The translations under genes were made by a program, and so were the position numbers. Below, piece by piece: positions 3,341 through 28,611 of a DNA stretch of 34,729 nt. The stretch spans positions 3,746 through 38,474 of the forward strand of contig PMZT01000290.1 of assembly GCA_003170085.1 (NCBI GenBank), given 5' to 3'. The stretch's first letter is position 1. Each line of letters starts with the position of its first letter. The notes under the pieces were generated by a model that was given only the letters and a program-made list of their open reading frames with translations, was not told where the DNA came from and ran no database searches. This DNA comes from Planctomycetia bacterium. Lineage in GTDB: Bacteria > Planctomycetota > Phycisphaerae > FEN-1346.

Positions 3341-3372
3341 GGGTATGCGGCTCCTTTGCGTCAGTCGCGCAA

Positions 3373-3392
3373 GCCCCCGGCATCGCCGGGGG
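3373..3392. repeat. CCCCCGGC-GCCGGGGG hairpin repeat, copy 1
   Basis: A perfect 8-base stem CCCCCGGC (3374-3381) and GCCGGGGG (3385-3392) has a three-base loop. An inverted copy with the same stem lies at 22764-22782. It sits just upstream of the symporter gene. It could act in RNA as a hairpin, but no T-run follows. Confidence 0.6.
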
Positions 3393-3479
3393 ATCTGATC
3401 CCCACGCATGTCGAAGATCCGCCGCGGCGGGCGTGGGGCTTGTCGCTTACGGCCCCGTCGCGGCGCGGTGGATTCGCAT

Positions 3480-3759: not shown

Positions 3760-3786
3760 ACCTGCGACCGGTGGGGTTGTGAACCC

Positions 3787-3816
3787 TTGGCAACGTCACG
3801 ACGGACGGTGTATACT
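3787..3816 (+). promoter_or_regulatory. candidate sigma70-like promoter upstream of the MBL/beta-helix gene
   Basis: TTGGCA (3787-3792) and TATACT (3811-3816) are separated by 18 bases. This is the best promoter-like pair in the spacer. The transcript would have a leader of about 180 bases before the start at 4006, containing the small open frame at 3837. Confidence 0.5.
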
Positions 3817-3836
3817 GCGGCCGGCAGGAATGCATC

Positions 3837-3953: not shown

Positions 3954-4005
3954 GCTTGTGGGCTTAATCGTGCCATGTACGCTACAGACATACAGGGAAT
4001 ACCAA

Positions 4006-7722: not shown

Positions 7723-7809
7723 TCCTTCGCACGTGATGGCGTGAGTGGGTCGGATAAGCCGATCTCCCATGAGGCACCGAGGATGCCTCAAGCGACAAAG
7801 GAGACCGGC

Positions 7810-7899
7810 ATGAACAAGAAGTACGTGGTGCGGTTGACAAGTGAGAAATGCCAGACGCCTCGTTCAATTGCGGATTTCGAATTGCGAATTGCGGATTGA
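7810..7899 (+). pseudogene. truncated N-terminus of an IS630-type transposase
   Basis: An ATG with AAAGGAGA seven bases before it encodes MNKKYVVRLTSEK, which resembles the start of IS630-family transposases (MNKKYVVRL-T-E-E type). After about 16 residues the frame enters a dispersed repeat and stops at 7897-7899. Only the first piece of the gene remains. No terminal inverted repeats are evident. Recognition is from a short stretch, so confidence is moderate. Confidence 0.5.
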
Positions 7900-7957
7900 A
7901 ACGGCACCCGCACGTCGCTTTTTCTAATTCGCAATCCGCATTCCGCAATCCGCAATC
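7863..7957. repeat. AT-richer dispersed repeat (GCGAATTGCGGATT words)
   Basis: The words GCGGATT and GCGAATT are repeated on the left arm (7868-7899), and their complements AATTCGCAATCCGC and CGCAATCCGCAAT on the right arm (7925-7957), around a GC-rich middle. This type of inverted repeat is common between genes in several environmental phyla. It separates the transposase remnant from the VOC remnant. Confidence 0.6.
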
Positions 7958-7960
7958 GCG

Positions 7961-8128
7961 TTCGCCGCCTACGGCAAGCCCCTCGAACTCATGACCGGCA
8001 AGAACCACAAGCGGCAACTCAACCTCTTCGGCCCGGATGGCGTCCGCGTGGAGTTGATGGAGCCGGACACCTTTGACGGCAAGCCCGTTCCGCCCGCCGA
8101 TGCCCCGCTGCCGAAAAAGGAGAAGTGA
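7961..8128 (+). pseudogene. C-terminal fragment of a VOC/glyoxalase family protein
   Basis: An open stretch of 55 codons ending in TGA at 8126-8128 encodes KNHKRQLNLFGPDGVRVELM and then a Pro-rich end. The pattern RQLN-LF-PDG-RVELME is the last beta strands of vicinal-oxygen-chelate (glyoxalase/bleomycin-resistance) proteins, including the metal-ligand Glu. The N-terminal half is missing, replaced by the repeat at 7863-7957, so this is a broken gene. Confidence 0.6.
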
Positions 8129-8358: not shown

Positions 8359-9633
8359 ATGAAGCCTGGTTGCCCGTCGTCCTCTGAATCCGCCGCCGAG
8401 GTCCCGCTGAGCCGCCGCAAGTTCGTCGGAGGCGCGATCGCCGCCGCGACCGCGGCCTCGCTCCTGGGCGCCGCACCGGCCCGCGCTGCCGAAGCGCCGG
8501 CACCGGCGGCCGCGCCGCCCGCGATCACGCGCAAGATCAAGGTGGGCCTCATTGGCGCCGGCGGGCGGGGAAGCTGGATCGCCAGGCTCTTCAAGAAACA
8601 CGGCGGCTACGAGTTCCACGCCGTGGCCGACTACTTCCCGCAGGTGGCCGGCGCCGCCGGCGAGGCCCTCGGCGTCGACCCCTCGCGCCGGTTCTCGGGC
8701 CTTTCGGGCTGCCAGAAGCTGATCGCCAGCGGCGTCGAGGCCGTCCTATGCGAAACCCCGCCGTACTTCCTTGCGCAGCAGGCCGTGGCCGTGGCCGAGG
8801 CTGGCCTTCACGTGTACATGGCTAAGCCCGTTGCGGTTGACGTGCCGGGGTGCCTGGCGATCGGCGCCGCCGGCAAGCGCTCGACCGAGAAGCAGCGGTG
8901 CTTCCTCGTCGATTACCAGATGCCCACCGATCCGATCAACATCGAGGTCGCCCAACGCATCCGCGACGGCGGCCTGGGGCCGATCGAGCAGGTGACCACC
9001 GTGGGCATCTGCGGCGGCTTCGCCGATCCGCCCAAGACGGCCACGATCGAGAGCCGCCTTCAGCACCTCATCTGGGTCAACGACGTCGCCCTCGGGGCCG
9101 ACTACATCGGCAACTTCGACATCCACGCCATCGACGCCGCGCTCTGGGTGCTGGGCCGGCGGCCGATCGCCGCGATGGGCGCCTCGCGCATCGGCCGGGC
9201 CGACCCGCACGGCGACGCCCGCGACGTCTGCTCGGTCGTCTTCGACTACGCCGACGGGTTCGTCCACAACCACCTCGGACAGGGTCTGGCCGACAACACC
9301 GACGGCGAACTCAGTTGCCGCATCTTCGGCCAGAAGGCCAACGCCCTCGTCAATTACTGGGGCAAGGCATACCTGCGCGGCGGGCCGAAGCACTACGGCG
9401 GCGGCGCCGTCGAGAATCTCTACGAGGCCGGCGCGGTCCGCAACATCGCCGCGTTCTACCAGAACGTGACCGAGGGCCGTTTCGAGAACCCGACCGTCCA
9501 GCGCGCGGTCGACGGCGCCCTGACGTGCATCCTCGGGCGCGAGGCCGCCGCCCGGCGGACGCGCCTTACGATGGACGAACTTCTCAAGGAGAACAAACGC
9601 CTCGAGATCGATCTGACGGGCCTCAAGGCCTGA
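8359..9633 (+). CDS. Tat-exported Gfo/Idh/MocA family oxidoreductase
   Basis: The protein has 424 residues, preceded by AGAGGAGAG. The N-terminus carries a twin-arginine signal (SRRKFVGG, residues 18-25, then an Ala-rich core ending near ARAAEA). The Rossmann domain begins at about residue 59 with GLIGAGGRGS (NAD(P) binding). The usual E-K-P of the family is here AKP (155-157); the Lys is kept. The GNFDIHAIDAALW segment (Asp254, His256, Asp259) holds the residues that normally sit near the nicotinamide. Such exported Gfo/Idh proteins are numerous in Planctomycetota next to sulfatases and hydrolases and are thought to act on sugars or related compounds. The substrate cannot be told. The gene is followed after 18 bases by a palindromic repeat and then the galactanase gene. 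Confidence 0.88.
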   Translation: MKPGCPSSSESAAEVPLSRRKFVGGAIAAATAASLLGAAPARAAEAPAPAAAPPAITRKIKVGLIGAGGRGSWIARLFKKHGGYEFHAVADYFPQVAGAAGEALGVDPSRRFSGLSGCQKLIASGVEAVLCETPPYFLAQQAVAVAEAGLHVYMAKPVAVDVPGCLAIGAAGKRSTEKQRCFLVDYQMPTDPINIEVAQRIRDGGLGPIEQVTTVGICGGFADPPKTATIESRLQHLIWVNDVALGADYIGNFDIHAIDAALWVLGRRPIAAMGASRIGRADPHGDARDVCSVVFDYADGFVHNHLGQGLADNTDGELSCRIFGQKANALVNYWGKAYLRGGPKHYGGGAVENLYEAGAVRNIAAFYQNVTEGRFENPTVQRAVDGALTCILGREAAARRTRLTMDELLKENKRLEIDLTGLKA

Positions 9634-9651: not shown

Positions 9652-9725
9652 CGACAGCGCAACTTTGCCATTTGCGCGGCGGGTCTCCGCACCCGCCGCG
9701 CAAGACCTTGAAAGCTGTGCTGTCG
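9652..9725. repeat. nested palindromic repeat (GCGCGGCGGGT stem), copy 2
   Basis: The core stem TTGCGCGGCGGGT (9672-9684), loop CTCCGC and ACCCGCCGCGCAA (9691-9703) are identical to copy 1 at 3516-3547, including the GACCTTG that follows. Outer arms CGACAGC (9652-9658) and GCTGTCG (9719-9725) pair. It lies between the Gfo/Idh and GH53 genes and ends 18 bases before the GH53 start. Confidence 0.75.
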
Positions 9726-9742
9726 TACAAAAGGGGAGAGCC

Positions 9743-10930
9743 ATGCTTTTCACAATGAGACGACTTCAGACCTGTCCCGCAGGCGGCCGCACGATCGCAG
9801 CCCTTGTGGCCGTCCTCGCGCTACTTGCAGCGGCGCTGCTTGCCGACAATCTTATGGCGGGCGAGGGGCCCCAGGCCGCGGCGAAGGCGGGCGACCTTCC
9901 GTTCCTCGCCGGCGGCGACATCTCCCTTGCGGCGAAGATCGAGGAGCACGGCGGCGTGTACCGCGACGGCGGCGCGCCGCGCGACCTGCTTGAGATCTTT
10001 CGTTGCCGCGGCGCCACGTGCATGCGCCTCCGCCTCTTTCACACCCCCAACGGCGTGGGGGCCGTGTGCAACGACCTCGCGTACACCACCAAGCTCGGCA
10101 AGCGGATCAAGGACGCGGGGTTCCTGCTGCTCCTCGACTTCCATTACTCCGACACGTGGGCCGATCCCGGCCATCAGCCCAAGCCCGCCGCGTGGAAGGA
10201 CCTGCCGATGGACGACCTCGAGCGGGCGGTCTTTGAGTACACGCGCGACTCGATCAAGGCGATGGCCGCCGGTGGCGCGCGGCCCGACATCGTGCAGGTG
10301 GGCAACGAGATCACGCCCGGCATGCTCTGGCCCGACGGCAAGACCGACAAGACGCCGGAGTCGTGGGTGCGCCTGGGGCGGCTGATCAAGGCAGGCCTCC
10401 GCGGCGTGCGCGAGGCGGCCGGCTCGGGGCCGCCCCTCCGCACCATGCTGCACGCCGATACGGGCGGCCGCCGCGCCGCCACGCAGTGGTTCTTCGATCA
10501 CGTGAAGGAACAGGGGGCCGAGTTCGACCTGATCGGCCTGAGCTACTACCCCGTGTGGCACGGCACGCTCGACAATCTGCGTGAGAACCTCGTTGCCACG
10601 GCCGCGCGGTACGGCAAGCCCATCGTGGTCGTCGAGACCGCGTACCCGTGGACGGCCGGCGACCCGAAGTGGGACAAGTGGCAGGGGCCGGATAATAAAG
10701 TTCGAGATAAGTATCCGCTGACGCCCGAGGGGCAGCGGCAGTTCCTGGCCGATCTTGTCAAGACGGTCCGCGAGACGCCCGAGGGCCTGGGCTGCGGCAT
10801 CCTCTGGTGGGCCCCCGAGTGGATCGCCGTCAAGGGGTTCGACGGCCACGGCGCCAGCCTCGCGCTCTTCGACCGTGACGGCAACGCCCTGCCGGCGCTG
10901 GATCTCCTGCGCGGCGGGCTGGCGAAATAG
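9743..10930 (+). CDS. exported glycoside hydrolase family 53, endo-beta-1,4-galactanase
   Basis: The protein has 395 residues. The start at 9743 follows AGGGGAGAG; an upstream in-frame start at 9665 would translate the palindromic repeat. Residues 1-40 are a signal with a long Ala/Leu core. The rest is a TIM barrel close to GH53: ISLAAKIEEHGGVYRDGG, MRLRLFHTPNG, LLLDFHYSDTWADPGHQ, IVQVGNEITPGMLWPDG and VVVETAYPW. Glu189 (in GNEIT) and Glu298 (in VETAYPW) match the acid/base and nucleophile of this retaining family. GH53 enzymes cut beta-1,4-galactan such as arabinogalactan I side chains, giving galactooligosaccharides outside the cytoplasm. Next to five sulfatases it suggests the target polymer contains galactose. 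Confidence 0.88.
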   Translation: MLFTMRRLQTCPAGGRTIAALVAVLALLAAALLADNLMAGEGPQAAAKAGDLPFLAGGDISLAAKIEEHGGVYRDGGAPRDLLEIFRCRGATCMRLRLFHTPNGVGAVCNDLAYTTKLGKRIKDAGFLLLLDFHYSDTWADPGHQPKPAAWKDLPMDDLERAVFEYTRDSIKAMAAGGARPDIVQVGNEITPGMLWPDGKTDKTPESWVRLGRLIKAGLRGVREAAGSGPPLRTMLHADTGGRRAATQWFFDHVKEQGAEFDLIGLSYYPVWHGTLDNLRENLVATAARYGKPIVVVETAYPWTAGDPKWDKWQGPDNKVRDKYPLTPEGQRQFLADLVKTVRETPEGLGCGILWWAPEWIAVKGFDGHGASLALFDRDGNALPALDLLRGGLAK

Positions 10931-11001: not shown

Positions 11002-11363
11002 CAGGGCAATCACATCTAAATGTTTTGTGAGGCAAAATTTCTGGCGCGTTCGGGCAAAGTTAGAGCCTTTCACGCGCGGCTGTAGCTGACACTGTGCGGC
11101 CGCCGCGCATAGGGCTACGGGCACGCGTGAATTGCTCTAGAATTGCGCCCGGCGTCGTGTCGTGGTAGTGTGCCGCCTCGAACAACCGGTAAGGCCTCGC
11201 CAACAACCCAACCTGTTGGTGGAAGGAGCGACGACATGGAGGCTCGCGCCCCGCGGGGCCTGCGGCGCTATTTTGCCGAGTTGCCCGATCCGAGGATGGC
11301 CCGGACACGGTATCATGGGCTTTCAGATATCCTGACACTTGCATCTGTGCCGTGATCTGCGGC
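11002..11363 (+). mobile_element. ISAs1-family insertion sequence remnant, left part only
   Basis: CAGGGC at 11002, immediately after the interrupted gene tail, fits the outer end of ISAs1-family inverted repeats. An internal inverted-repeat pair is seen at about 11059-11082 (TTTCACGCG) and 11113-11135 (CGCGTGAA). The transposase start follows at 11236. Similarity ends at about 11363 inside what is now the 3' end of the sulfatase gene on the other strand, and no right end is found. The left boundary is inferred from the broken reading frame and the CAGGGC word. Confidence 0.5.
11236..11363 (+). pseudogene. ISAs1-family transposase, N-terminal fragment with a frameshift
   Basis: An ATG with GGAAGGAG before it encodes RRYFAELPDPRMARTRYHG and then SDILTLA, matching the conserved ISAs1 N-terminus (HFAELPDPR-RT-H-L-DIL). 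A one-base deletion at about 11344 shifts the frame: restoring a C there gives LALCAVICG, the next conserved block, while the present frame stops at 11353-11355. Sequence after about 11363 no longer matches. It is a dead fragment. Confidence 0.75.
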
Positions 11364-13034
11364 GTCGTCGGACGTGGCCACGCGGCGAATCTCCTCGGCG
11401 GCGCGAGTCCAGCGGTCCGACAGTTCGCGGACCTTCTCGGGGTGTTTCTCCGCGAGATTGGTGGACTCCGCGCGGTCGGTCCGCAGGTCGTAGAGTTCCC
11501 ACGGTCCCTGGGCGCCCTCGGCCACAACCTTCCAGTCGCCCACGCGGATGGCGCGGTTGCCCGAGTGGCACCACCACAGGTACTCGTGCGCCACGGCGCC
11601 GTCGCGCGCGAAGGCCGGCACAAGGCTCATGCCGGGCGGCGGCGGAACGGGCTTGCCTTCCCACGTTTCCGGCCGGTGCCCGCCGGCGAGTTCGAGGAGC
11701 GTCGGCACAAAATCAATGAAATGACATACGTCGCGGCGCAACTCGCCCCGGGCCGGGATGCCCGTGGGCCAGTGGACGATCAGCGGCGACGAGATGCCGC
11801 CCTCGTGCACCCAGACTTTGTGCAGGCGGAAGGGCGTGTTGGAGGCGGTGGACCAGCCCGGCCCTAAGCAAGCGTACGTCTTCGCCGAGCCGAGCGGCGC
11901 CGCCGGGTCGTGGCCGTCGCCGCGGATCATCTGCTCGGCGCTGGCGCCGTTGTCGGAGACGAAGAGGATGACCGTGTTCTCGAAGGCGTTCATCGCCCGG
12001 AGCTGGTCCAGCACGCGGCCGATTTCGCGGTCGACGCGGTCGATCATCGCGGCGTGGATGGCCATCTTGGTGGCCTGGAAGCGTTTTTGCTCGTCGGTCA
12101 GCGTGTCCCACGGCACCGCCTGGGGCACCTCGCCCGGCCCGATTCGCGTCTTCATCTCCTCGGGCTTCAGGTTCCAGTTAGGCAGGCTTTTCGGATCGGG
12201 CTTCGACAGCGGACAGTTAATGAGGCCCATGTCGGTCATGCGCTTGTGCTTTTCGCGGCGGAGCTCGTCCCACCCCTTGAGGAAGCGGTCGCGATAACGA
12301 TCGATATCCTCCTGCGGCGCCTGAATGGGAAAGTGCGGCTCCGTGAACGCAAGATACTGGAAGAACGGGCGGTCCGCGAAATTCTTCGCGTGGTCCCGCA
12401 GGCAGCGGATGGCAAAGTCGGCGATGGCCGTGCTGGCGTAGTAGCCCTCGGCGGACTTGACGGGCTCGAGCGGCGGGTCGATCTCGGCCATTCTCTTGGC
12501 GGAGAGGAAGTGATGGTCGGTGTCGCTGTACTCAAACGCGAGATCGAAGCCGCCCGCCACGGGTTTGCCATCGACGTGCCACTTGCCGGAATGGTACGAG
12601 CGGTAGCCGAGGGGCCTCAGCATCTCCGGCAGCAGCCGCGCCCACGCGGGGCGCTTGCCGCCCGTGCCGCCGGCCAGGCCGGGCATGCCCGCCGTGGCGG
12701 GTAGGGCGTCGCGCCGCACCTGCTGGGCATAATAGCCAGTCAGGATGCAGGCCCGCGACGGCCAGCAGCGGGCCGTGGAGTAGCACTGCGTGAACCGGAT
12801 GCCGCCGGCGGCAAGGCCGTCGATGTGGGGCGTGGCGACGGGGCCGCCGTAGCATCCGGGGTCGGAGTAGCCCATGTCATCCATCACGATGACGAGGAAG
12901 TTGGGCTTGGGTGCCATGCTTTCGCGCCGCTCGGAAAACATGGTCTCGCCCGCCACCCCGCGGGCCCACGACGGCACCGCGGCGGCCGCCGCGCCCAGGC
13001 CGGCCAGTTTCAGGAAACCGCGACGATTCAGCAT
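11313..13034 (-). CDS. Tat-exported Cys-type arylsulfatase (sulfatase 1)
   Basis: The protein has 573 residues; the start has AGGAGG before it. A Tat signal, RRGFLK (4-9), leads to an Ala-rich core. Family S1 sulfatase hallmarks: VMDDMGYSD with Asp52/Asp53 as metal ligands, CWPSR with Cys90 as the residue converted to formylglycine, and LFVSDNGAS as the second metal site. It hydrolyses sulfate esters outside the cytoplasm. Two palindromic repeats are translated in frame: TMFSERRESMAP (31-42), between signal and catalytic domain, and PATAGMP about 20 residues after the active site. The last 15 or so residues and the stop come from the antisense strand of the ISAs1 remnant, so the natural C-terminus was probably replaced. 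It is the last gene of the minus-strand block. Maturation needs an anSME or FGE enzyme, not in this window. Confidence 0.9.
   Translation of the reverse strand: MLNRRGFLKLAGLGAAAAAVPSWARGVAGETMFSERRESMAPKPNFLVIVMDDMGYSDPGCYGGPVATPHIDGLAAGGIRFTQCYSTARCWPSRACILTGYYAQQVRRDALPATAGMPGLAGGTGGKRPAWARLLPEMLRPLGYRSYHSGKWHVDGKPVAGGFDLAFEYSDTDHHFLSAKRMAEIDPPLEPVKSAEGYYASTAIADFAIRCLRDHAKNFADRPFFQYLAFTEPHFPIQAPQEDIDRYRDRFLKGWDELRREKHKRMTDMGLINCPLSKPDPKSLPNWNLKPEEMKTRIGPGEVPQAVPWDTLTDEQKRFQATKMAIHAAMIDRVDREIGRVLDQLRAMNAFENTVILFVSDNGASAEQMIRGDGHDPAAPLGSAKTYACLGPGWSTASNTPFRLHKVWVHEGGISSPLIVHWPTGIPARGELRRDVCHFIDFVPTLLELAGGHRPETWEGKPVPPPPGMSLVPAFARDGAVAHEYLWWCHSGNRAIRVGDWKVVAEGAQGPWELYDLRTDRAESTNLAEKHPEKVRELSDRWTRAAEEIRRVATSDDAADHGTDASVRISESP
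12687..12703. repeat. CCCGCC-GGCGGG palindrome inside sulfatase 1
   Basis: CCCGCCgtGGCGGGT on the plus strand encodes PATAG on the minus strand, in the same frame as the copy in the lipoprotein gene at 849-863. It falls in a surface-loop position of the sulfatase, between the active-site helix and GGKRPAWARLLP. Confidence 0.55.
12909..12944. repeat. GGGTGCCATGCTTTCGC repeat inside sulfatase 1
   Basis: The 36-base segment starts GGGTGCCATGCTTTCGCGCC and ends GGAAAACATGGTC. It is nearly the same as the intergenic segment 18184-18220. Here it is read through in frame as TMFSERRESMAP, directly after the Tat signal peptide. Confidence 0.65.
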
Positions 13035-13081
13035 CGGCTTGCCCTCCTGAACAGCACGCCCTTGTGCTACAACGCCAAGAC

Positions 13082-13300
13082 TTCACCGCGGAGCACGCAG
13101 AGACCGCAGAGAAAAACAGAAACGACTTACGGATTGGGGAAAAACGGAAAAACAAACGGATTCAACGCAAGAACGCAGAGAAAGACAAAGAGAAAAGAGG
13201 GCAAAAAAACGGCTTGAGTTGTTGTGGCTTTTTCCATTTTTTACCAATCCTTCCGTCGTTGCTTCTTTTCTCTGCGTTCTCCGCGGCCTCTGCGGTGAAT
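13082..13300. repeat. large inverted-arm repeat (CACCGCGGAG...CTCTGCGGTGA), copy 1
   Basis: Left arm TTCACCGCGGAGCACGCAGA (from 13082) pairs with the right arm (13270-13300, ending CCTCTGCGGTGAA). The A-rich middle has ATTGGGGAAAAACGG. A second copy in the opposite orientation is at 16032-16164; the shared segment AAACGACTTAC-GATTGGGGAAAA shows that the inner part is conserved as well. The 314-base spacer 13035-13348 between sulfatase 1 and the lipoprotein gene consists mainly of this element. Confidence 0.75.
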
Positions 13301-13348
13301 CCGTTGCCGTTGTTCTCTGCGGCGAAACCGAACGGCCTGGCACCCCCG

Positions 13349-14407
13349 TTAGCCCCGCTTGACGAACTTCCGCACGAAATCGAGCACCGAGCGCGTGAAC
13401 GTGAACTCGCCCGTCTCGGGCAAGGTGTGCTCGGGGCCGCTGACCCAGCTCTCGATGACGAACTGGTCGGGCGCCCCCTGCGCGAGCAGGTAGTCGTAAC
13501 CCTGCTGCATGACCGCCACGTACCACGTCGAATCGTCGGCCAGCCCGCGCTTCTGCATGGCGGGGTAACCCGAGGCCCAGTAGATCAGGCTGAAGGGGAG
13601 CTTGTGGCCGCGGCAGAACCGTTCCAGCTTCTTCACCTCGGGCCACGTGCCGCGGTCGAACACGACGAACTCGGCCCAGTTCACGTCGAGCCGGTAGAAG
13701 TCGAGGCCGCGGACGCCTATCTCGGCCAGCCGCTTCTCCAGGGCCTCGATCCACGCCACCTGGTCGGCATACGGGATGAATGGATACGGCTCGATGTCGC
13801 CGATCAGAACCCGCGGGTAGTTCTTACGCACGAGCGCGATGTAGGCGGCCGTCTCCCGCACCGCGTAGTCGTCGGTCTGGTGGATCTCCTTGCGCGCGCA
13901 GCAGAGCGGCTCATCCAGGGCAATGGCGTGGATCACGCCGCCCAGGCGCTCGACGCGTTCCCACAGGGGGCGCTCGATGTTGAAGGTCTTCTCGCCCGTG
14001 GTGCCCCACGGCTTGACGGCGCCCACCTCCATGCCCAGCTTGACGCCCCATTCCTGGAGTTTCGGCAGCCAGGCGCGGAGCTCATCGTCGGTGAACTGCT
14101 TTTTCAGGTTGAGGTCCGTGTAGCAAAGGACGTCGATCACGGACCGCGTTTGCTTCCACTCGTCCGGGTGCTCGAAGAGCGCGCGAAAACACTTGCCGCC
14201 GTCGTACGCCGACGGTCCCATCCAGACGGTGGGCTTCGGGCCGCCGGCCGGGGTAGTCGCAGGTTTCGGCACAGGCTGCGACACCGGCTGAGGCGCGGGC
14301 TGCGGGGGCGTAGCGGCCTTCTCCTCCGCCCGGAAACAACCCGGTAGCGCCAGCGCCGCGCCCGTGGCGGCGACCTTCAGGAAATCGCGTCGGGTCCTCG
14401 CGTTCAC
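13349..14407 (-). CDS. Tat-type lipoprotein, putative TIM-barrel glycosidase
   Basis: The protein has 352 residues. I prefer the GTG at 14407: AGAGG precedes it, and it gives a Tat signal of the same short form (NARTRRDFLK) as its neighbours. An ATG at 14440 overlapping the upstream stop (ATGA) is the alternative. A lipobox LPGC follows, so it is probably both Tat-exported and lipidated, then a Pro-rich linker. The domain alternates hydrophobic strands with acidic ends (ALDEPL, LIGDIEPYP, LDFYRLDVNW, FVIESW), as in the beta-alpha barrels of retaining glycosidases. I do not recognise the family. It lies 29 bases downstream of sulfatase 2 and is probably co-transcribed. A role in the same polysaccharide is inferred from context. 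Confidence 0.7.
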   Translation of the reverse strand: MNARTRRDFLKVAATGAALALPGCFRAEEKAATPPQPAPQPVSQPVPKPATTPAGGPKPTVWMGPSAYDGGKCFRALFEHPDEWKQTRSVIDVLCYTDLNLKKQFTDDELRAWLPKLQEWGVKLGMEVGAVKPWGTTGEKTFNIERPLWERVERLGGVIHAIALDEPLCCARKEIHQTDDYAVRETAAYIALVRKNYPRVLIGDIEPYPFIPYADQVAWIEALEKRLAEIGVRGLDFYRLDVNWAEFVVFDRGTWPEVKKLERFCRGHKLPFSLIYWASGYPAMQKRGLADDSTWYVAVMQQGYDYLLAQGAPDQFVIESWVSGPEHTLPETGEFTFTRSVLDFVRKFVKRG

Positions 14408-14436
14408 GTTGCACAACCTCTTTTCAGGCAACACGG

Positions 14437-15948
14437 TCATGCCTCGCCGACGCGCTTCAGCCATGCGTGGAGCTTCGCGTCGAGTTCCTTGCGCGTGTCC
14501 GCGTGGGCGGGGTCCTCAACCAGGTTGTCCATCTGGTGCGGATCCTTCTCATTATCGTAAAGGAGCCACGGCTTCAAGCCGTTTCCCTCTTGGGCCTTGG
14601 CGTAGGTGTAGCGCGGCGTGCGAAGCCCGCGCCACTTGCCGCCGCCTTTCTTGGCAGCGCGTTTGTCCTGCCCCTTTCCCTTCTCGGTGCCGTTGCCGCC
14701 TTCTTCCTCTTCGCCTTCCGTGGCGCCGGGGCCGGACATGATGAAGGCCGACTCGGGTCCGGGGGCGTCCTTGCCCTTGAGAATGGCCGAGAGGTCCGCC
14801 CCCTGCATCTGGGGCAAGACCGCCTCACCCGCCAAGCCGAGCAGCGTGGGCGTGATGTCGACGGTCGAGAAGAGCGTGTCCAGGCGCCGGCCGGCCGGAA
14901 TGACGCCGGGCCAGCGGATGATGAAGGGCACGTTGATCGCCTCGTCCCACGGCACATTCTTGCCCCATCGGTCGAAGGAGCCGAGCATATCCCCGTGGTC
15001 GCTCGAGTAACAGACGATGGTGTGGTCGGCAATGTGCAACTCGGCGAGTTTCTTCATCAGGCGCCCGACCTCTTCGTCCATCGCCGAGATGTGGGCGAAG
15101 TACTCCACTTGGTTCTCGCGCACCCGCCGGACCTCGTCCGCCTTGGGCACGTTCGGCCGGAGCTTGATCTGGTCGGCCGGGTACAGCTCGGCGAACCGTT
15201 TCGGGGCCTCCTTGTACGGCGGGTGCGGCGGATGCCACGACAGAAAGACACAGAACGGCTTGGCTGCATTCTTCTCGACGAACTCCAGCACGAGGTCCAT
15301 CTGCCCCTTGGGCGCGTAGCCGTCGATCGTGATTTCCTTCCCGGCGTCATCGTAGTACCGCGTGGCGTAGCGGTTGCGGTAGTTGTAACAGACCCGCCAG
15401 TAGTCGAACCCGTGGCGGTGCGGCCCGGGCGGCACGATCTTCCCCGATTCCCACCCCGCATACAGGTGCCACTTGCCGACGTAGCCGGTCGCGTAACCGG
15501 CCTTCTTCAGGACATCGGCGAGGGTGACCTCCGTGAGGGGTAGTCCGCTGCCGTTGGCGCCCACGTTCCCGCTGACCGTGTGGGCCTGCTGGTATCGGCC
15601 GGTCAGGAGGCTGGCCCGGTAGGGCGAGCAGAGCGGGTGGTTGCTGATGCAGTGCGTGAAGACGGCGCCCTCGCGGGCCAGGGCTTCAAGGTTCGGCGCC
15701 TTGACCTGCGGGTCGCCGCCGCCCGGCCAGGAGCAGTTGCGATGCTGGTCGGGAAAGACGAAGACGATGTTGGGCCGGCGCTTGTCCGGCCCGCCACCGC
15801 GGGTCTCTGGCGCGGGCGCGGCCTCCTCGGCCCGCCCCGGCGGGTCTGCGACAAGATGGCGTGGACCGGCGGCGCCCATCACGCCGGCGGTCACGGCCCC
15901 GGCGCCCGCGGCCTTCAGGAATTCCCGGCGGTTCAGCTTGCGACGCAT
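14437..15948 (-). CDS. Tat-exported Cys-type sulfatase (sulfatase 2)
   Basis: The protein has 503 residues, with AGGAGA before the start. The Tat motif is NRREFLK (6-12). The catalytic domain starts at about residue 57: FVFPDQHR places Asp67 and Gln68 at the first metal site (Asp-Gln variant), CSPYR holds the formylglycine Cys107, and SSDHGDMLG is the second metal site. The pattern DQHR with DHGDMLG is closer to the choline-sulfatase/phosphonate-hydrolase-like branch than to arylsulfatase A. A low-complexity acidic then Lys-rich loop (EGEEEEGG, then KGKGQDK, about residues 415-440) is unusual. Between the signal and the domain there are two in-frame palindromes, giving ADPPGRAEE and ETRGGGP. 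It is followed by the putative glycosidase lipoprotein and preceded by a repeat-filled spacer. Confidence 0.9.
   Translation of the reverse strand: MRRKLNRREFLKAAGAGAVTAGVMGAAGPRHLVADPPGRAEEAAPAPETRGGGPDKRRPNIVFVFPDQHRNCSWPGGGDPQVKAPNLEALAREGAVFTHCISNHPLCSPYRASLLTGRYQQAHTVSGNVGANGSGLPLTEVTLADVLKKAGYATGYVGKWHLYAGWESGKIVPPGPHRHGFDYWRVCYNYRNRYATRYYDDAGKEITIDGYAPKGQMDLVLEFVEKNAAKPFCVFLSWHPPHPPYKEAPKRFAELYPADQIKLRPNVPKADEVRRVRENQVEYFAHISAMDEEVGRLMKKLAELHIADHTIVCYSSDHGDMLGSFDRWGKNVPWDEAINVPFIIRWPGVIPAGRRLDTLFSTVDITPTLLGLAGEAVLPQMQGADLSAILKGKDAPGPESAFIMSGPGATEGEEEEGGNGTEKGKGQDKRAAKKGGGKWRGLRTPRYTYAKAQEGNGLKPWLLYDNEKDPHQMDNLVEDPAHADTRKELDAKLHAWLKRVGEA
15787..15851. repeat. two CCCGCC-GCGGGTCT palindromes inside sulfatase 2
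   Basis: CCGCCACCGCGGGTCTCTGG (from 15791) and CCCGCCCCGGCGGGTCTGCG (from 15831) lie in the linker after the Tat signal. The second is nearly identical to the one inside the esterase gene at 18029-18050 and is read in the same frame, giving DPPGRA in both proteins. Confidence 0.65.
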
Positions 15949-16031
15949 AAGTGGTCTCCTATGATCCCCCCCGTATCAACGGTCACGGCCCCGTCTGTGT
16001 TGGGCGGTTTCCGACGTTTTCGGCCGTTTCA

Positions 16032-16164
16032 TTCACCGCGGAGCACGCGGAGAAAGACAGAGGCGGAGAATAAAGAAAACTATATCCGTCCGCTTTTTCC
16101 GTTTTTCCCCAATCAGTAAGTCGTTTCTGTTGTTCTCTGCGTTCTCCGCGGCCTCTGCGGTGAA
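16032..16164. repeat. large inverted-arm repeat, copy 2 (opposite orientation)
   Basis: Left arm TTCACCGCGGAGCACGCGGA (from 16032) and right arm CTCCGCGGCCTCTGCGGTGAA (ending 16164) enclose TTTTTCCCCAATCAGTAAGT, which is the reverse complement of the inner part of copy 1. It fills most of the 233-base spacer between the esterase and sulfatase 2. Confidence 0.75.
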
Positions 16165-16181
16165 ATCCTTTTTTGGCGCGG

Positions 16182-18143
16182 TTAAGTCTTCGCGCTCGGT
16201 ATCCACCGCAGGTTACGAAATTCGCGTGGGCCTTGCCACGGTTTGCCGCCGAGCTTGACCTCTTGCCCGTCCTTGACGGCTGCGCCGCTCGGGCTCATGC
16301 TGAACTCCGCAACCTGTTGCCAGTTCCTGGGCGGCTCGTCTTTCTTGCCCTTCTTTTCCTTCTTCTCGGCGGCCGGCAGCAGGTCTTCAAGGCCGACCTC
16401 AACGGTCTGCCAATCGTCGGACGCCTTCAGTTTCTTCTCCGCCACCCAGGCCGTGGCCGGGCCGTTGGAGAACGCTCCCCATTCATTTACTTGAAACGTG
16501 AAGACCAGCGTGTTTTCTTTCGTGGACTTGATGTCCACCGCCAGCCGCGCGCCGTCCGGCCCGCGCCATTTAGGGTCCTTCAGTTTGCGGGTACACGCGG
16601 TCCAGAGCGGCGGATGGTCCCAGTTGAGCACGTACCAGTCGTGCCAGCCGCGCGCGCCGTCGTCGATCATAAGCTCGGGCCGGTCGGTCGCCTTGACGCC
16701 CGCGGCGGCAAGCTCGGCCGCGCCCGCCCACAGCATCCTCGAACTGATCGCAAACGTGTCGATCTTGTCGAGCGCGCGGTACGATTCGGGCAGCTCGTAG
16801 AGAACGTTGGCGAGGACAAAGAGCGGTTGCTGGGTGCTCATGACCGGGCAGAGGGCGGACCACTTCTCGCCCTCGCGCCTGGCCCCCGCGTCGCGCCAGA
16901 ACCGGGTTGTGATCTGCGGGTCGATCGCGTAGTAGAGGTCCACGCCCTTGACCGGCCGCGCGGCGTCGGGCGTCACGGTCACCGCGGGCACGCCGTCGGG
17001 CGTCTTCAGGGCGAGTTCGATCCGCGGCGTCGCCGGCATCGCGAACGTGCCCTTCAGGTGCTGGTCGAACCAGAGATACCGGCAGACCTCGAACTCCGGC
17101 CCGTGCCGGTGGTTCATGTGCGGCGTGATGCTGAAACGCACCTGCCCGGCCGGCAGGTTCCGCCACGTGTACATCATGTTATCGAGATGCCCGTTGAAGT
17201 CGTTGGTGGGGCCGAGGTACAGGATCGGGCACGCGATGCGGTCGAGGTACGCGTTGTCGGCCACGCAGGCCAGGTCGAGCGGGGCCGGCGTGGTTTTTTG
17301 CGCACCGGGCACGTCGGCCTGGCTTTCGAGGACGACGCCCGCGCCGCCGCACGACGGCGCGGACGCCTTGATCCGCCGGTCGATGCCGGAGACGTCGGTC
17401 GTGAGCTTGCCGCCCATCGAGTGGCCGTGGACGCCGATCCGCGCCGGATCGGTCTCCGGCTGCTGCGCAAAAAACGTGATTGCCCGCCGGACGCCGACGA
17501 GCACGATGAACCAGTTGCTGTTGCGGGGCGACTCGACGGGGTCGAGCGTGAATTCGTCCGGGGCGAACGACGACGCACCCCCGACGAAGTGATTCTTGGG
17601 CGTTCGCTGCGGCGGGTGAGTGCAATCGAGCCTGCCCCAATCGGTGTTCGGCCCGTCGTACTTGACCTGACCGGTATCCATCGGGTTGCCGCCCCAGTTG
17701 ATCGAGAGGCAGGCGTAGCCGTGCCGCGCATCTTCAATGACCGCTCTTGCACTGGCGTGCTGGCCACCGCCGTGGACCTCCACGAGTGCGGGCAGCTTGC
17801 CGCCGCCCTTGGGAAATCCGTAGATCGCCGCCATCGTCGACCGCGCGCCCTTGAAGACGCCCACGCGATACCGCACCACGCGGAGGACGATGCCGTCCTG
17901 CTCCCACTCCTTGCACGCTTCGATCTCAAGCGGCTCCTTGGCCGGGTCGTATCCGCCCCAGAGTTCATCGAGGTTCTGCGGCGCCTTTCCGCCCTTGAGC
18001 GGCGGGAGGGAGTCCTGCAAGGGGTCGGCCCGCCCCGGCGGGTCTCCGACGCGAGTCTCGGCGGCGAAAGCGGCCGGGCCAATGAGCGCAGCCCCTGCGG
18101 CGGCGGCTACACCCTTCGCGAGATCACGACGAGTCAGCGGCAT
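16182..18143 (-). CDS. Tat-exported alpha/beta-hydrolase (acetyl xylan esterase / dienelactone-hydrolase-like) with C-terminal beta-sandwich
   Basis: The protein has 653 residues, with AGGAAGGG before the start. The Tat motif is TRRDLAK (4-10), followed by an Ala-rich core. The linker contains DPPGRAD, encoded by a palindromic repeat. Residues about 75-380 form an alpha/beta-hydrolase: VEVHGGGQ (oxyanion region), GHSMGG with the nucleophile Ser242, Asp315 in GPTNDFNGH and a His in PHMNHRHG (342-347) as the likely triad. Distant resemblance to PhoPQ-activated PqaA proteins is also possible. Residues about 400-650 include a beta-rich domain with a Lys-rich loop (EKKEKKGKKDE), likely carbohydrate-binding. 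In this cluster a deacetylase of the sulfated polymer or its fragments is the simplest role, by inference. The gene sits between sulfatases 2 and 3. Confidence 0.82.
   Translation of the reverse strand: MPLTRRDLAKGVAAAAGAALIGPAAFAAETRVGDPPGRADPLQDSLPPLKGGKAPQNLDELWGGYDPAKEPLEIEACKEWEQDGIVLRVVRYRVGVFKGARSTMAAIYGFPKGGGKLPALVEVHGGGQHASARAVIEDARHGYACLSINWGGNPMDTGQVKYDGPNTDWGRLDCTHPPQRTPKNHFVGGASSFAPDEFTLDPVESPRNSNWFIVLVGVRRAITFFAQQPETDPARIGVHGHSMGGKLTTDVSGIDRRIKASAPSCGGAGVVLESQADVPGAQKTTPAPLDLACVADNAYLDRIACPILYLGPTNDFNGHLDNMMYTWRNLPAGQVRFSITPHMNHRHGPEFEVCRYLWFDQHLKGTFAMPATPRIELALKTPDGVPAVTVTPDAARPVKGVDLYYAIDPQITTRFWRDAGARREGEKWSALCPVMSTQQPLFVLANVLYELPESYRALDKIDTFAISSRMLWAGAAELAAAGVKATDRPELMIDDGARGWHDWYVLNWDHPPLWTACTRKLKDPKWRGPDGARLAVDIKSTKENTLVFTFQVNEWGAFSNGPATAWVAEKKLKASDDWQTVEVGLEDLLPAAEKKEKKGKKDEPPRNWQQVAEFSMSPSGAAVKDGQEVKLGGKPWQGPREFRNLRWIPSAKT
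18029..18050. repeat. CCCGCC-GGCGGGTCT palindrome inside the esterase gene
   Basis: CCCGCCCCGGCGGGTCTCCG starts at about 18029. It is read in frame as GDPPGRAD just after the Tat signal. It matches the sulfatase 2 copy at 15831-15850 with one difference in 20 bases. Confidence 0.65.
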
Positions 18144-18330: not shown

Positions 18331-19791
18331 CTACTCGTTGTTCTTTGCCTTGCCCTTCTTGCCTTGCTTGACGGGCGCATCACGGCCGGTGCCGCCCTTG
18401 TTCGCGGCAACGTCGGGCGGTTCGAGGGTCTTACCCTGGTCGTTCGTCTCCTCGATCCACTTCTCGAGCGCCGCACGGAGGCGCTTCAGCGTGGCCTCAT
18501 GTTCGGGCAACTTAGCAAGGTTCCTGATCTCGTGCGGATCTTCCTGCAGGTCGTACAACTCCTCTTCCGGCATGGTCGGCGCGCACAGCACTTCCTGGGC
18601 GGGCGTCAGCTTGCCCTGATCGTGAAGCTCCTTCAGGAGGTTCCAGACCGGGTACTGCCTCTCCTTGTAATCGTTCTTCTGCAGGAAGGGCCGGTCCGGC
18701 GTGAAGTTGCGGATGTGGCGGTAGCGGTTGTCGCGCACCGTGCGAAGGCGGAAGACCGTTTCGTCGCAGCGGTCGCGGGCGCCGAAGGTGTACTGGCGCG
18801 GCGGGCCGGCGCGGGCGCCCAGAAACACGCGGCCCTCCATCTTCTCGGGAACCTTCGCACCGGCCAGGTCGAGCATCGTGGGCGCCAGGTCGATGGCCAT
18901 GAGCAGCCGCTCGTCGACCGTGCCGGGTTTGAATCCCGCCGGCGGCGTCAGCCCTTTCGGCCACCGGATGATGAGCGGCACGATCAGCCCTTCCTCGTAA
19001 ACGAACTGCTTGCCGCGCACGTGCGGTTCGCCGTTGTCGCCGAAGAAGATGATGACGGTGGTGTCAGCGAGGCCGTCCTTCTCGAGCTGCGCGAGGGCCT
19101 CGCCTACCTTGCCATCGAGGGCCGTCATGCTGTCGAGGTAGGCCGCCATGTCGGCGCGGGTCACAGGATGGTCGGGGTAGTACGGCGGTATATCGACCTT
19201 GGCCGGATCGGCCCGTTTCGGCGCCTTGAAGGTGCGGTGCGGTTCGATGTAGTTGATCTGGGCGAAGAAGGGCTGGTGGGCCTTGAGGTCGCTCCACTGG
19301 TTGGTATCGAACGGCTTTGCGGGCGGCTCGAAGTTCCAGTCGGTCTTGCCCGTGCCGCGCCAGGCCACGCCCTCGGGCATGGTCGTGATGTTGGCCGTAT
19401 AGTAGCCGGCGTCGCGGAACCATTCGGTCAGCACGCGTACGCCGTCGGGCAACCGGAACCCGTCGCCGCGGTGCGAGCGGTGGTTGTGCGCGCCGATCGT
19501 CGTCTGGTACATGCCCGTCATGAACGCCGAGCGGCTGGGCGAGCACACCGGCGCCGTCGTGTAGAAGTGCGTGTAGCGGACGCCCTCGGCGGCCAACTGG
19601 TCGAGGTGGGGCGACCAGACCTCTTTCGTCCCGTAGCAGCCGAGCGCCGGGCCGGCATCGTCGCCGATCAGCCAGAGGAAGTTCAGCGGGCGCAGCGGCG
19701 TTTCCGCTGCGCGCAGGCCCTGCCCGAGCGCCAGGGCCCCGGCGCCAGCGCCGCATAGCCTCAGAAAATCGCGACGTGTTTGAGTCGGCAT
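18331..19791 (-). CDS. Tat-exported Cys-type sulfatase (sulfatase 3)
   Basis: The protein has 486 residues, with GGAGAG before the start. The Tat motif is TRRDFLR (5-11). The catalytic domain: LIGDDAGP with Asp44/Asp45, CSPSR with Cys83 (formylglycine), IFFGDNGE as the second metal site. RWPKGLTPP and MLDLAG mark the usual C-terminal part. The shape (CSPSRSAFMTGMYQT, HNHRSHRGDG) is close to the heparan N-sulfatase-like branch common in Planctomycetota. The protein ends in a Lys-rich tail, KQGKKGKAKNNE, very like that of sulfatase 4. The stop of sulfatase 4 is 13 bases upstream, so the two are surely co-transcribed. Confidence 0.92.
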   Translation of the reverse strand: MPTQTRRDFLRLCGAGAGALALGQGLRAAETPLRPLNFLWLIGDDAGPALGCYGTKEVWSPHLDQLAAEGVRYTHFYTTAPVCSPSRSAFMTGMYQTTIGAHNHRSHRGDGFRLPDGVRVLTEWFRDAGYYTANITTMPEGVAWRGTGKTDWNFEPPAKPFDTNQWSDLKAHQPFFAQINYIEPHRTFKAPKRADPAKVDIPPYYPDHPVTRADMAAYLDSMTALDGKVGEALAQLEKDGLADTTVIIFFGDNGEPHVRGKQFVYEEGLIVPLIIRWPKGLTPPAGFKPGTVDERLLMAIDLAPTMLDLAGAKVPEKMEGRVFLGARAGPPRQYTFGARDRCDETVFRLRTVRDNRYRHIRNFTPDRPFLQKNDYKERQYPVWNLLKELHDQGKLTPAQEVLCAPTMPEEELYDLQEDPHEIRNLAKLPEHEATLKRLRAALEKWIEETNDQGKTLEPPDVAANKGGTGRDAPVKQGKKGKAKNNE

Positions 19792-19804: not shown

Positions 19805-21253
19805 TTACTCGTTGCCCTTCGCCTTGCCCTTGGCCTTCGCCTTCTTCGGCAGCGTCTCGGGCTTATTGAAGAACTCGAGGTTCACCTCCGCCGGCTGCGG
19901 GCTGGCAACGGTCAGCGGCAATGTGTCGCCGTAGCGTTTCTGCTCTTCGGCCAAGAGGGCCATCAGCTCCTTGATCCGGTCGGCCTGGGCGGGGTCGGCG
20001 GCAAGGTCCTTCATCTCGAACGGGTCGGCGGCAAGGTCGAAGAGTTGGGTCTTGTTGACCTCGGGGTAGCGGATGAGCTTCCACTGGCCGCGCCGGACGG
20101 ACCGCTGGACGTCGCGGTAGGCCAGGAAGATCGCGTCGCGCACCGCCTGGACTTTCCCCTGCATGACGGGCACCAGGCTGCGGCCGTCGATCGCCTCGGG
20201 AGGCTTGGCGCCGGTGAGTTCACAAACGGTTGGATAGATGTCGAAGTGATACGCGAAGGCGTCGGATGCCTTGCCCTGCGGAATACCGGGGCCGCAGAAG
20301 ATGACGGGCACGTTCATCGCTTCCTCGTACAGGTTCTGCTTCCCCAGGAGACCGTGGCTGCCGATGGAAACGCCCTGGTCGCCGGTCCAGATGAGGATCG
20401 TGTTGTCGAGTTCGCCGATTTCCCTGAGGGTCTGGAGGATGCGGCCGAACTGCGCGTCGAGGCACGTGATGTCGGCATAGTAGTCGCGGAGTTGGCGGCG
20501 GATCTCGTCCTCGGTACGCGGCCAGGGGGCGAGTTTCTCGTCGCGGACGAAGAGTTCACCGTTATTGAACGGGTGGAAGGGCAGGTAGTTGGGCAGCAGC
20601 GGCATCTTCGCCACGTCGTATTTGTCGAGGATCTCCTGGGGCGCGCTCCGCGGATCGTGCGGGTGCGGCGGGGCCAGGTGCATGAAGAACGGCGGGGCGG
20701 TGCCCGCGTCGCGCTGCTTCTTCCAGTCTTGCAGGAACGCGATGACGCCGTCGGCCATGACCTGGCCGGGGACTGCAACGGGTCCGCGGCGATCGTCGAA
20801 GTTCTCGGACTTGAAGACTTTGAGCACCGGCCCATCGTTGTTGCCCGCCTTGCCGAGGAAGAACGTGGAGTACCCGGCGTCGGCCATCGACTTGGGAAAG
20901 TTCTGTTCCTGCCACTCCTTGAAGCGCGGCGAGAAATACGTGCGGCCCCTCAGGATCATCTGCCGCGCGGGCAGGCACACCGCCCCCGTGTACCCGCCGA
21001 GGCAATACGCGCGGCGGAAGGTGAAGCCGCTCTTGACAAGGGTATCGAGGTTCGGCGTCTGGATGACGGGGTTGCCGAGGGCCGCGATCGTGTCGCCGCG
21101 CTGATCGTCGGTCAGGAGGAAGATGACGTTGGGCCGCCTGGCGGCGGGCGCGGGGGCCGGACTCTCGCCGGCGAAGGCATACCGGCCCAGGGCGGCAGCA
21201 GCGGCGCCTGCGGCACAGAGGGACCTTGCGAACTCGCGGCGGGTAATGTTCAT
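19805..21253 (-). CDS. Tat-exported Cys-type sulfatase (sulfatase 4)
   Basis: The protein has 482 residues, with AAGGAG before the start. The Tat motif is TRREFAR (4-10). LLTDDQRGD gives Asp49/Asp50, CLPAR holds Cys93 as the formylglycine precursor (C-x-P-x-R satisfied, Ala at the fourth place rather than Ser), and WTGDQGVSIGSHGLLGKQN is the second metal site (Asp-Gln). The subfamily therefore differs from sulfatases 3 and 5. The Lys-rich end KAKAKGKAKGNE repeats that of sulfatase 3 although the bodies differ. Ten bases separate it from the stop of sulfatase 5. Confidence 0.92.
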   Translation of the reverse strand: MNITRREFARSLCAAGAAAAALGRYAFAGESPAPAPAARRPNVIFLLTDDQRGDTIAALGNPVIQTPNLDTLVKSGFTFRRAYCLGGYTGAVCLPARQMILRGRTYFSPRFKEWQEQNFPKSMADAGYSTFFLGKAGNNDGPVLKVFKSENFDDRRGPVAVPGQVMADGVIAFLQDWKKQRDAGTAPPFFMHLAPPHPHDPRSAPQEILDKYDVAKMPLLPNYLPFHPFNNGELFVRDEKLAPWPRTEDEIRRQLRDYYADITCLDAQFGRILQTLREIGELDNTILIWTGDQGVSIGSHGLLGKQNLYEEAMNVPVIFCGPGIPQGKASDAFAYHFDIYPTVCELTGAKPPEAIDGRSLVPVMQGKVQAVRDAIFLAYRDVQRSVRRGQWKLIRYPEVNKTQLFDLAADPFEMKDLAADPAQADRIKELMALLAEEQKRYGDTLPLTVASPQPAEVNLEFFNKPETLPKKAKAKGKAKGNE

Positions 21254-21263: not shown

Positions 21264-22745
21264 TTAGTCCACCACCGGCATCTCGCCCGAGAGCGTAAGC
21301 GGCCTGGGCTTCGCCGCCGTGTCGTGTTCGCGGACGCCGGGGCCGCTCCCGGTCACGCCCAGGTCCTTGTCCATCTTGTCGATGAGTTCCTGCATGCGTT
21401 TGACGACCTCGGGGTTTGCGGCCGCCACGTCGGTCGTCTCGCCGATGTCTTTGTCGAGGTGGTAGAGCGCCGTTTCCGGCTTCAGCCGGTACTTCCACGA
21501 GCCGCTGCGCACGGCCTCGAGCGGACCGGTGCCGCCGGCGAAATAGTAGAACGCCTCGTGCGGGCTCTTGGCGCCGGGCTCGCCGAAGAGCAGGGGCCGG
21601 ATATCGCGGCCGTCGATCGCACGGTCGGCGGGCACCTGGCCGCCGGCCAGGCCCACCAGCGTCGGCAGCACGTCCATCGTCGAGGTGATCTCGTCGCACG
21701 CGCGGCCGGCCGGCACGCGACCGGGCCACCACGCGATCACGGGTTCGCGCAGGCCGCCCTCCCACGTGGATCCCTTGAAGCCGCGCAGCGGGGTGTTGTC
21801 GCCCGTCTTGGTGGCCCCGTTGTCGGAGGCGAAGATCACGAGCGTGCGCTCGGCCAGGCCCAGTTCGCGCACCGCGTCGAGGACCTTGCCCGCGCTCCAG
21901 TCGGCCTCCTCAACCCAGTCGCCGTAAACGCCGTTGAAGGACTTGCCCTTGAACGCATCGCCCGGGTGATACGGGTTGTGCACGGCCGTGTGCGCCAGGT
22001 AGAGGAAGAACGGGCGGTCCTTGTTGGCGCGGATGAACTTGAGGGCCTCGTCGGTGTAGATCTCGACCAGGCGGTCCTGGTCGCGCGGCGCGACCTCCTG
22101 CACAACCTTTTCATCGCGGAGGAGCGGCAGCGGCGGGCGCTTGGGGGCCGGGTTGGCATTCTCGGCCTTCTTCGCGGCGGCCTTCGGGCCGGGGGGCTTC
22201 TCGGCCGGCCCCATGTCGTTCGAGTACGGCAGGCCCAGGTAATGGTCGAAGCCGCGGCGCGTCGGCAGGAACTCCGGCTGGTCGCCCAGGTGCCATTTGC
22301 CCACGCACATCGTGGCGTAGCCCTGCGGCTTGAGAAGCTCGGGAATGATCTTCTCACGCCGGCTGAGGCCCACCGGGCTCACCGGGAAGAGCACCGACGG
22401 CATGCTGCACCGCTTGGCGTAGCAGCCGGTCATAAGCGTGGTGCGCGAGGCCGTGCACAGGGGCGCCGCGTAGAAGCTCGTCAGGCGCGTGCCCTCGGCG
22501 GCCATGCGTTCGAGGTTCGGCGTGCGGTTCTTCTTCGACCCGAACGGCCCGACGTCGCCGTAGCCCATGTCATCCATATAGATGATGATGAAGTTGGGCT
22601 TGCCGTCCGCCGGGCCGCTCGCCGCCGGCGTCTCGGCGGCTGCAAGGTGCCTCCCCGCCACGGCGGGTCCTTGACACGACGGGAGCAGCGCGGCGCCGGC
22701 ACCGGCGCACGTCCACTTGACGAATCCGCGGCGCGTCAGGGCCAT
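21264..22745 (-). CDS. Tat-exported Cys-type arylsulfatase (sulfatase 5)
   Basis: The protein has 493 residues, with GGAGGA before the start. The Tat motif is TRRGFVK (4-10); a Cys at residue 24 (LLPSC) could even be a lipobox variant. YMDDMGYGD gives Asp58/Asp59. The active-site motif is CTASR (Cys97): Ala replaces the usual Pro, a variant accepted by sulfatase-maturating enzymes. FASDNGATK and LRGFKGSTWEGGLREP are typical of the arylsulfatase A/GALNS-like branch. A palindrome encoding QGPAVAGRH is inserted just after the signal. It is the first of the minus-strand sulfatase block, 52 bases downstream of the purB stop. Confidence 0.92.
   Translation of the reverse strand: MALTRRGFVKWTCAGAGAALLPSCQGPAVAGRHLAAAETPAASGPADGKPNFIIIYMDDMGYGDVGPFGSKKNRTPNLERMAAEGTRLTSFYAAPLCTASRTTLMTGCYAKRCSMPSVLFPVSPVGLSRREKIIPELLKPQGYATMCVGKWHLGDQPEFLPTRRGFDHYLGLPYSNDMGPAEKPPGPKAAAKKAENANPAPKRPPLPLLRDEKVVQEVAPRDQDRLVEIYTDEALKFIRANKDRPFFLYLAHTAVHNPYHPGDAFKGKSFNGVYGDWVEEADWSAGKVLDAVRELGLAERTLVIFASDNGATKTGDNTPLRGFKGSTWEGGLREPVIAWWPGRVPAGRACDEITSTMDVLPTLVGLAGGQVPADRAIDGRDIRPLLFGEPGAKSPHEAFYYFAGGTGPLEAVRSGSWKYRLKPETALYHLDKDIGETTDVAAANPEVVKRMQELIDKMDKDLGVTGSGPGVREHDTAAKPRPLTLSGEMPVVD
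22652..22671. repeat. CCCGCC-GGCGGGTC palindrome inside sulfatase 5
   Basis: CCCGCCacGGCGGGTCCTTGAC (starts about 22654) resembles the intergenic copies at 54-74 and 18270-18289. It is read in frame as GPAVAG, immediately after the signal peptide. Confidence 0.6.
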
Positions 22746-24246: not shown

Positions 24247-24264
24247 AAAAATCCTTTTTAATAG

Positions 24265-28610: not shown

Positions 28611-28611
28611 A

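Follow-up and report, generated by a model that had tools for sequence, protein, structure and literature searches.

A predicted exported TIM-barrel protein beside sulfatase genes in a Planctomycetia bacterium, probably a glycoside hydrolase of an undescribed family

The barrel gene and its family

We analysed a stretch of 34,729 nucleotides (hereafter the window) from contig PMZT01000290.1 of a Planctomycetia bacterium (assembly GCA_003170085.1), in which a gene lying between sulfatase genes encodes an exported protein with a predicted TIM-barrel fold. This gene, called here the barrel gene, occupies 13349..14407 on the minus strand: it opens with a GTG at 14407, closes with a stop codon at 13349-13351 and encodes 352 residues. 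The first-pass annotation of the window had given the same coordinates and length, which translation bears out, and had left the strand unstated; the plus-strand frame over these positions is a different, antisense frame. The motif AGAGG at 14417..14421 (minus strand), nine bases before the GTG, is a probable ribosome-binding site. An ATG further upstream, at 14464 (57 bases further), would give a protein of 371 residues, but this frame would overlap the end of the neighbouring sulfatase gene. The barrel gene is present in one copy in its own genome. Relatives aligned across the whole core are 59-73% identical to it, with E values down to 5e-150, and five of them show 61-72% identity across 292-296 aligned residues. 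Codon differences from these five fall mostly at the third position (62/41/123 at the three positions over 296 codons for the relative at locus L002). Judged by sequence comparison, the minus-strand frame is thus a real gene, because its relatives keep 61-72% of the core and the changes concentrate at third codon positions.

We then assessed how widely the family is distributed. Our large genome searches scored the top five or six candidates per genome, and all counts are lower bounds. The protein matched at least 10 of 392 genomes of the phylum, several by the signal only; three of the ten (G100, G285 and G250) were excluded because they match only the signal end, within residues 2-87, and a further genome, G377, was excluded from the family because its match runs through stops. 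Profile A1 found at least 7 of 384 phylum genomes and profile A5 at least 9 of 384, two of these being weak and partial. Among relatives, at least 2 of 41 genomes matched the protein, its own genome included, and a related-locus search with the barrel gene returned 4 loci. In the Sumerlaeota, the phylum of locus L004, at least 2 of 40 genomes matched: the genome of L004 at three places and G778 at six. The six copies of G778 are diverged, lie on six contigs (loci L033, L035, L036, L038, L039 and L040) and carry motifs such as LLSNFPNWGWKG and DFPYDYA. No match in viral contigs was confirmed by protein or profile, and plasmids gave no match. Alignment A5 holds 20 rows from Planctomycetota and Sumerlaeota, out of 21 distinct family frames; it leaves out L034 (a truncated second copy in the genome of L004), a fragment on contig C128 of the genome of L005, and the weak partial matches in G146 and G180, and its row L005 stops at a contig edge, without the last quarter of the protein. 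The IQ-TREE tree of this alignment separates a group of 9 rows containing the window protein (100/100) from a group of 11 rows (100/100). Inside the former, seven rows including the window protein form a close group (100/100), which mixes Planctomycetota, one Sumerlaeota row and L002, whose genome is titled Candidatus Nealsonbacteria and may be a mislabelled bin. The best reading of this distribution is a rare, undescribed family spread thinly over Planctomycetota and Sumerlaeota.

Database searches agree with the earlier statement that the protein fits no recognised family. Against Pfam and NCBIfam, only signal-peptide models rose above noise for the barrel protein, and no convincing model was found for the 20 alignment members. 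Sequence searches of the PDB with the protein and two profiles gave nothing convincing (matches at E 0.45-2.3). We treated as chance a Gp44_lid match in 4 of the 20 members (best E 0.041), single weak matches to GHL6 (0.018), ComA (0.097) and FMN_dh (0.11), and a polynuc_phos match (0.0035). The literature excerpts that we retrieved, for a family with no name to search by, contained no description of it.

The amino-terminal signal, encoded at 14336..14407 (minus strand), was examined separately. The protein begins MNARTRRDFLKVAATGAALALPGC, which contains the twin-arginine motif TRRDFLK and a loose lipobox, LPGC, ending at Cys24. TIGR01409 matches this region with 20.9 bits (cut-off 16.7), and Pfam TAT_signal reaches 17.8 bits, under its own cut-off of 22.7. 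The Tat signal proposed in the first-pass annotation is therefore recovered. The lipobox proposed with it is present as a motif, but fails the strict pattern PS51257, which excludes Pro at -2, the residue found there in LPGC; the protein may nevertheless be lipidated. Read by eye, the close relatives at L002, L003, L004, L005, L006 and L007 carry differing, Sec-like leaders, indicating that export is kept within the family and that the Tat/lipoprotein form is not.

Predicted fold and conserved acids

The region from about residue 60 to 352 (13352..14230, minus strand) is predicted from AlphaFold models and alignment A5 to form a (beta-alpha)8 barrel. The AlphaFold runs took only five close rows as alignment input. 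A model headed by the relative at L003, which is 70% identical to the window protein, reached a mean pLDDT of 68.8 and a pTM of 0.75, with eight strands (model residues 5-8, 37-42, 68-73, 104-110, 146-153, 182-188, 217-222 and 260-263) alternating with helices. With this model, Foldseek returned mainly barrels near the top, tagatose/psicose 3-epimerases being among the early matches. VIA-align gave 50 rows with Z 12.0-14.6, of which 42 are glycosidases and 8 other enzymes as read from their names; Cwp19 and a beta-amylase complex, which we take to be glycosidases, are counted among the 42. These glycosidases include members of GH18, GH53, GH26, GH10, GH39, GH44, GH5 and GH191, and the rows are so nearly tied that no family assignment follows. 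A complete (beta-alpha)8 barrel is thus supported, as a prediction of moderate confidence. The barrel fold had been suggested from the letters alone, with structure prediction and comparison with carbohydrate-active barrels as the way to check it; the predicted fold and the TIM barrels among its Foldseek and VIA-align matches bear that suggestion out.

We mapped alignment A5 onto the model headed by L003, so that the placement of residues on strands rests on a moderate-confidence model. All 20 rows share three acids without variation, each lying at the carboxyl end of a predicted strand: E127 at strand 3 (codon 14027..14029, all codons here being on the minus strand), D165 at strand 4 in the motif D-E-P (13913..13915), and D241 at strand 6 (13685..13687), 76 residues after D165. 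At the end of strand 8, S320-W321 (13445..13450) are kept in all 19 rows that reach them, and E331, in a P-E motif of the following loop (13415..13417), in 18 of 19. Other acids vary. E166, the Glu of DEP, is kept in 9 of 20 rows, as is E206, the Glu of DIEP; position 319, which supplies the Glu of ESW, has Glu in 10 of 19 rows and Gln in the other 9. On strand 7 the columns of W277 and S279 are not invariably acidic, and neither residue of the window protein is an acid. No His occurs among the columns conserved in at least 75% of rows. The motifs ALDEPL, GDIEPYP, FYRLDVNW and FVIESW, to which the first-pass annotation had pointed as an alternating pattern of strands with acidic ends, are all found in the minus-strand translation; this was a good reading, since the Asp of ALDEPL (D165) and that of RLDVNW (D241) are invariant, and the Glu residues of ESW and DIEP vary. 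From the modelled positions we infer D165 and D241 to be the most likely catalytic pair, and either could be the nucleophile.

This arrangement was compared with those of known barrel enzymes. In clan GH-A the catalytic Glu residues stand at the ends of strands 4 and 7. GH53, a family present in the window itself, shares the barrel fold, and several of its structures score near the top of the VIA-align rows (Z 12.8-13.8); in the barrel family, in contrast, the residue at strand 4 is always Asp, with a Glu next to it in no more than 9 of the 20 rows, and no position of strand 7 is invariably acidic. None of the clan-A Pfam models appears at E<=1 in any of the 20 members. Membership of GH53 or clan GH-A was rejected, there being no Glu/Glu pair, no Pfam match and no match in a profile test against the single GH53 sequence of the window; lacking that pair, the barrel protein is not simply another GH53-type enzyme. 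Clan GH-D (GH27, GH31 and GH36) uses an Asp at strand 4 and an Asp at strand 6, and D165 and D241, invariant in 20 of 20 rows, would match this Asp/Asp arrangement if the modelled strands are right, whereas no Melibiase or GH31 Pfam match was found in the 20 members. Xylose-isomerase-like barrels (AP_endonuc_2, PF01261) bind metal through Glu-Asp-His-Glu ligands; they share the fold and the early Foldseek matches, but the barrel family has no conserved His ligand, is exported and shows one weak member match only. We rejected membership of AP_endonuc_2, with no conserved His and a negative profile test (single-sequence target), and that of the GH99-like group was rejected on a negative profile test, again against a single sequence. 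The endo-galactosaminidases of GH114, GH135, GH166 and GH191 are described, in the excerpt of PMC12054363 at hand, as having an Asp nucleophile, a later Glu acid/base and a three-stranded insertion after strand 3. Two of their structures, TM1410 and TmGH191 (2aam and 9euz), are VIA-align rows at Z 12.1, tied with many barrels, and D165 would fit the Asp nucleophile of that excerpt. The later invariant residue is, however, Asp in the barrel family (D241, 20 of 20 rows) and Glu in theirs, the insertion described there is not seen in our predicted model, and no Pfam match links the two.

Gene neighbourhoods in the window and around relatives

The barrel gene belongs to a run of minus-strand genes which, in the order of transcription, comprises sulfatase 5 (21264..22745), sulfatase 4 (19805..21253), sulfatase 3 (18331..19791), an esterase-like gene (16182..18143; AXE1, 27.2 bits against a cut-off of 21), sulfatase 2 (14437..15948), the barrel gene and sulfatase 1 (11313..13034), with successive gaps of 10, 13, 187, 233, 29 and 314 bases. 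Each of the five sulfatases has a PF00884 match and contains the motif C-x-P/A-x-R (from sulfatase 1 to 5: CWPSR, CSPYR, CSPSR, CLPAR and CTASR). The position between sulfatases and the spacing of 29 bases (14408-14436) to sulfatase 2, directly upstream, are thus as first described. Elsewhere in the window lie genes for a GH53-family endo-galactanase-like protein (9665..10930, plus strand; PF07745, E 2.2e-93), a GFO/IDH/MocA oxidoreductase found by Pfam scan (8359..9633, plus strand) and a sodium:solute symporter (1130..3409, minus strand; PF00474). In the arabinogalactan system of Bacteroides plebeius, according to an excerpt of PMC8406133, a galactanase can depend on the prior action of a sulfatase, a precedent which makes the logic of sulfatase followed by enzyme reasonable for the window. 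An imperfect-palindrome dispersed repeat, at 13082-13299 and 16032-16164, brackets the barrel gene and sulfatase 2. When up to one mismatch is allowed, its core, CCGCGGAGAACGCAGAGA, is found 56 times in the genome, compared with 0 for a reversed control, and an Rfam search of 13000-16400 gave no match; our guess is a MITE- or REP-like element.

Sequence flanking the relatives was collected for 20 loci, and for 13 of these a selection of genes was scanned with Pfam. As a raw count, a recognised carbohydrate-related partner was found in 7 of the 13. L003 has GH36-like, PfkB and AP_endonuc_2 (xylose-isomerase-like) neighbours; L004 a GH99-like gene (below cut-off) and GH38C; L005 a PL11 rhamnogalacturonan lyase; L046 GH95 and GFO/IDH/MocA; L042 a sulfatase and an esterase; and L049 a GH42-like gene. 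At L047 (8619-10715, plus strand) the barrel relative carries a fused second domain that is WbsX-like (PF14307; 26.7 bits, cut-off 25.1). Among the relatives' loci scanned, a sulfatase was recognised at L042 only. The partnership with sulfatases is therefore not conserved, and the idea of a galactan substrate comes from the window, with its GH53 gene and five sulfatases; the link to desulfated galactans made in the first-pass annotation finds no support beyond it. Near the barrel relative at L044 we also observed two plus-strand genes (976-3849 and 4032-7976) for caspase-domain proteins (PF00656), one of them with WD40 repeats.

A candidate glycoside hydrolase and its alternatives

The export motif, the family, the fold (at moderate confidence) and the positions and invariance of the residues were obtained by computation. 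From these we infer hydrolysis, the roles of the residues and the kind of substrate, and propose, with a probability of about 0.55, that the barrel gene product is an exported (beta-alpha)8 enzyme, probably a glycoside hydrolase, from a rare family not described before. The protein would leave the cytoplasm through the Tat system and may be a lipoprotein; its target, in the periplasm or on the cell surface, would be a polysaccharide or oligosaccharide that the neighbouring sulfatases, esterase and GH53 enzyme would make accessible to it. Its active site would lie at the carboxyl ends of the strands, with D165 and D241 as the catalytic pair and E127, S320-W321 and E331 shaping or assisting it. 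Several results weigh against this proposal. None of the 20 members could be tied by sequence to a CAZy-type Pfam family, and profile tests against the GH53 protein of the window and against GH99-like and AP_endonuc_2 proteins were negative, these being weak tests on single sequences. The first AlphaFold model, headed by the window protein, reached only a pLDDT of 57.1 and a pTM of 0.64, and in the model headed by L003 the last quarter of the barrel, after model residue 240, is mostly below pLDDT 50. Z-scores among TIM barrels fail to separate hydrolases from other enzymes, and glycosidases, 42 of the 50 rows here, are common among PDB barrels in general. Finally, no single neighbour is conserved across the scanned loci, and in six of them (L002, L041, L043, L044, L048 and L050) none of the scanned genes was recognised as carbohydrate-cleaving.

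That the barrel enzyme acts on carbohydrate and yet has nothing to do with the sulfatases, being a chance member of the cluster in a family devoted to another glycan (for example pectic, or an exopolysaccharide), appears unlikely. Close relatives do lie beside PL11 lyase, GH36-like, GH38/GH99-like and GH95 genes, only one relative's locus showed a recognised sulfatase, and the repeat pair bracketing the barrel gene with sulfatase 2 may mark a recent arrangement; however, the barrel gene sits 29 bases from its neighbour in a same-strand run with sulfatases and esterase, and the window also contains a GH53 gene. We regard as slightly more doubtful a sugar enzyme that is no hydrolase, a metal-dependent isomerase or epimerase or a lyase, in which E127, D165, D241 and E331 would be ligands or general bases. 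The invariant candidate residues are indeed carboxylates, one of the 20 members matches AP_endonuc_2 (E 0.017) and the second model drew tagatose/psicose 3-epimerases early in Foldseek, but isomerase-like barrels use a His ligand, for which no His conserved at 75% or more is available, and xylose-isomerase-like isomerases normally work in the cytoplasm, whereas the barrel protein is exported. We give little credence to an exported barrel that only binds glycan or is a degenerate enzyme: no activity has been measured for any family member, and E166, E206 and E319 of the window's subgroup are not kept in the wider family, but E127, D165 and D241, invariant in 20 of 20 rows, occupy the classical active-site position of barrels.

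The barrel proteins could, at somewhat short of even odds, be founding members of a new glycoside hydrolase family, perhaps even of a separate clan, whose active site combines Glu at strand 3 with Asp at strands 4 and 6; this family would have expanded to six copies in a single Sumerlaeota genome and would be directed at a glycan whose hydrolase is still unknown. We regard them as a new family of a familiar kind and not a new kind of system. Most carbohydrate enzymes of Planctomycetota remain uncharacterised and lie far from the entries of databases, according to an excerpt of PMC11131199. A barrel family with invariant acids at its strand ends, missed by Pfam, NCBIfam and PDB sequence searches, is a candidate new glycosidase family and offers named residues (E127, D165 and D241) and a small gene cluster as test targets; should it prove hydrolytic, one step in how these bacteria break down glycans is at present missed by annotation pipelines.

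The remainder of the contig was also inspected. The sulfatase run adjoins purB, whose product is 59-61% identical to those of 4 of the 5 same-family genomes searched, the fifth giving no match, so that the contig on the sulfatase side agrees with the host lineage. A sharp break in composition occurs to the right of purB, at about 24050-24500, with a GC content of 0.61-0.70 per kb to its left and 0.49-0.58 to its right, and a dip to 0.30 at 24275-24499. Right of the break, a topoisomerase B subunit shares no more than 35-38% identity with those of same-family genomes. The contig could be a chimera, or its sequence beyond about 24.25 kb could be foreign. A gyrase/topoisomerase IV-like pair of A and B genes spans 26700-30417, another B-type gene being present on contig C120 of the same genome. 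On the other side of the window, a plus-strand frame of 1259 residues (3943-7722) combines EF-hands, a metallo-beta-lactamase fold domain and right-handed beta-helix/Chlam_PMP repeats.
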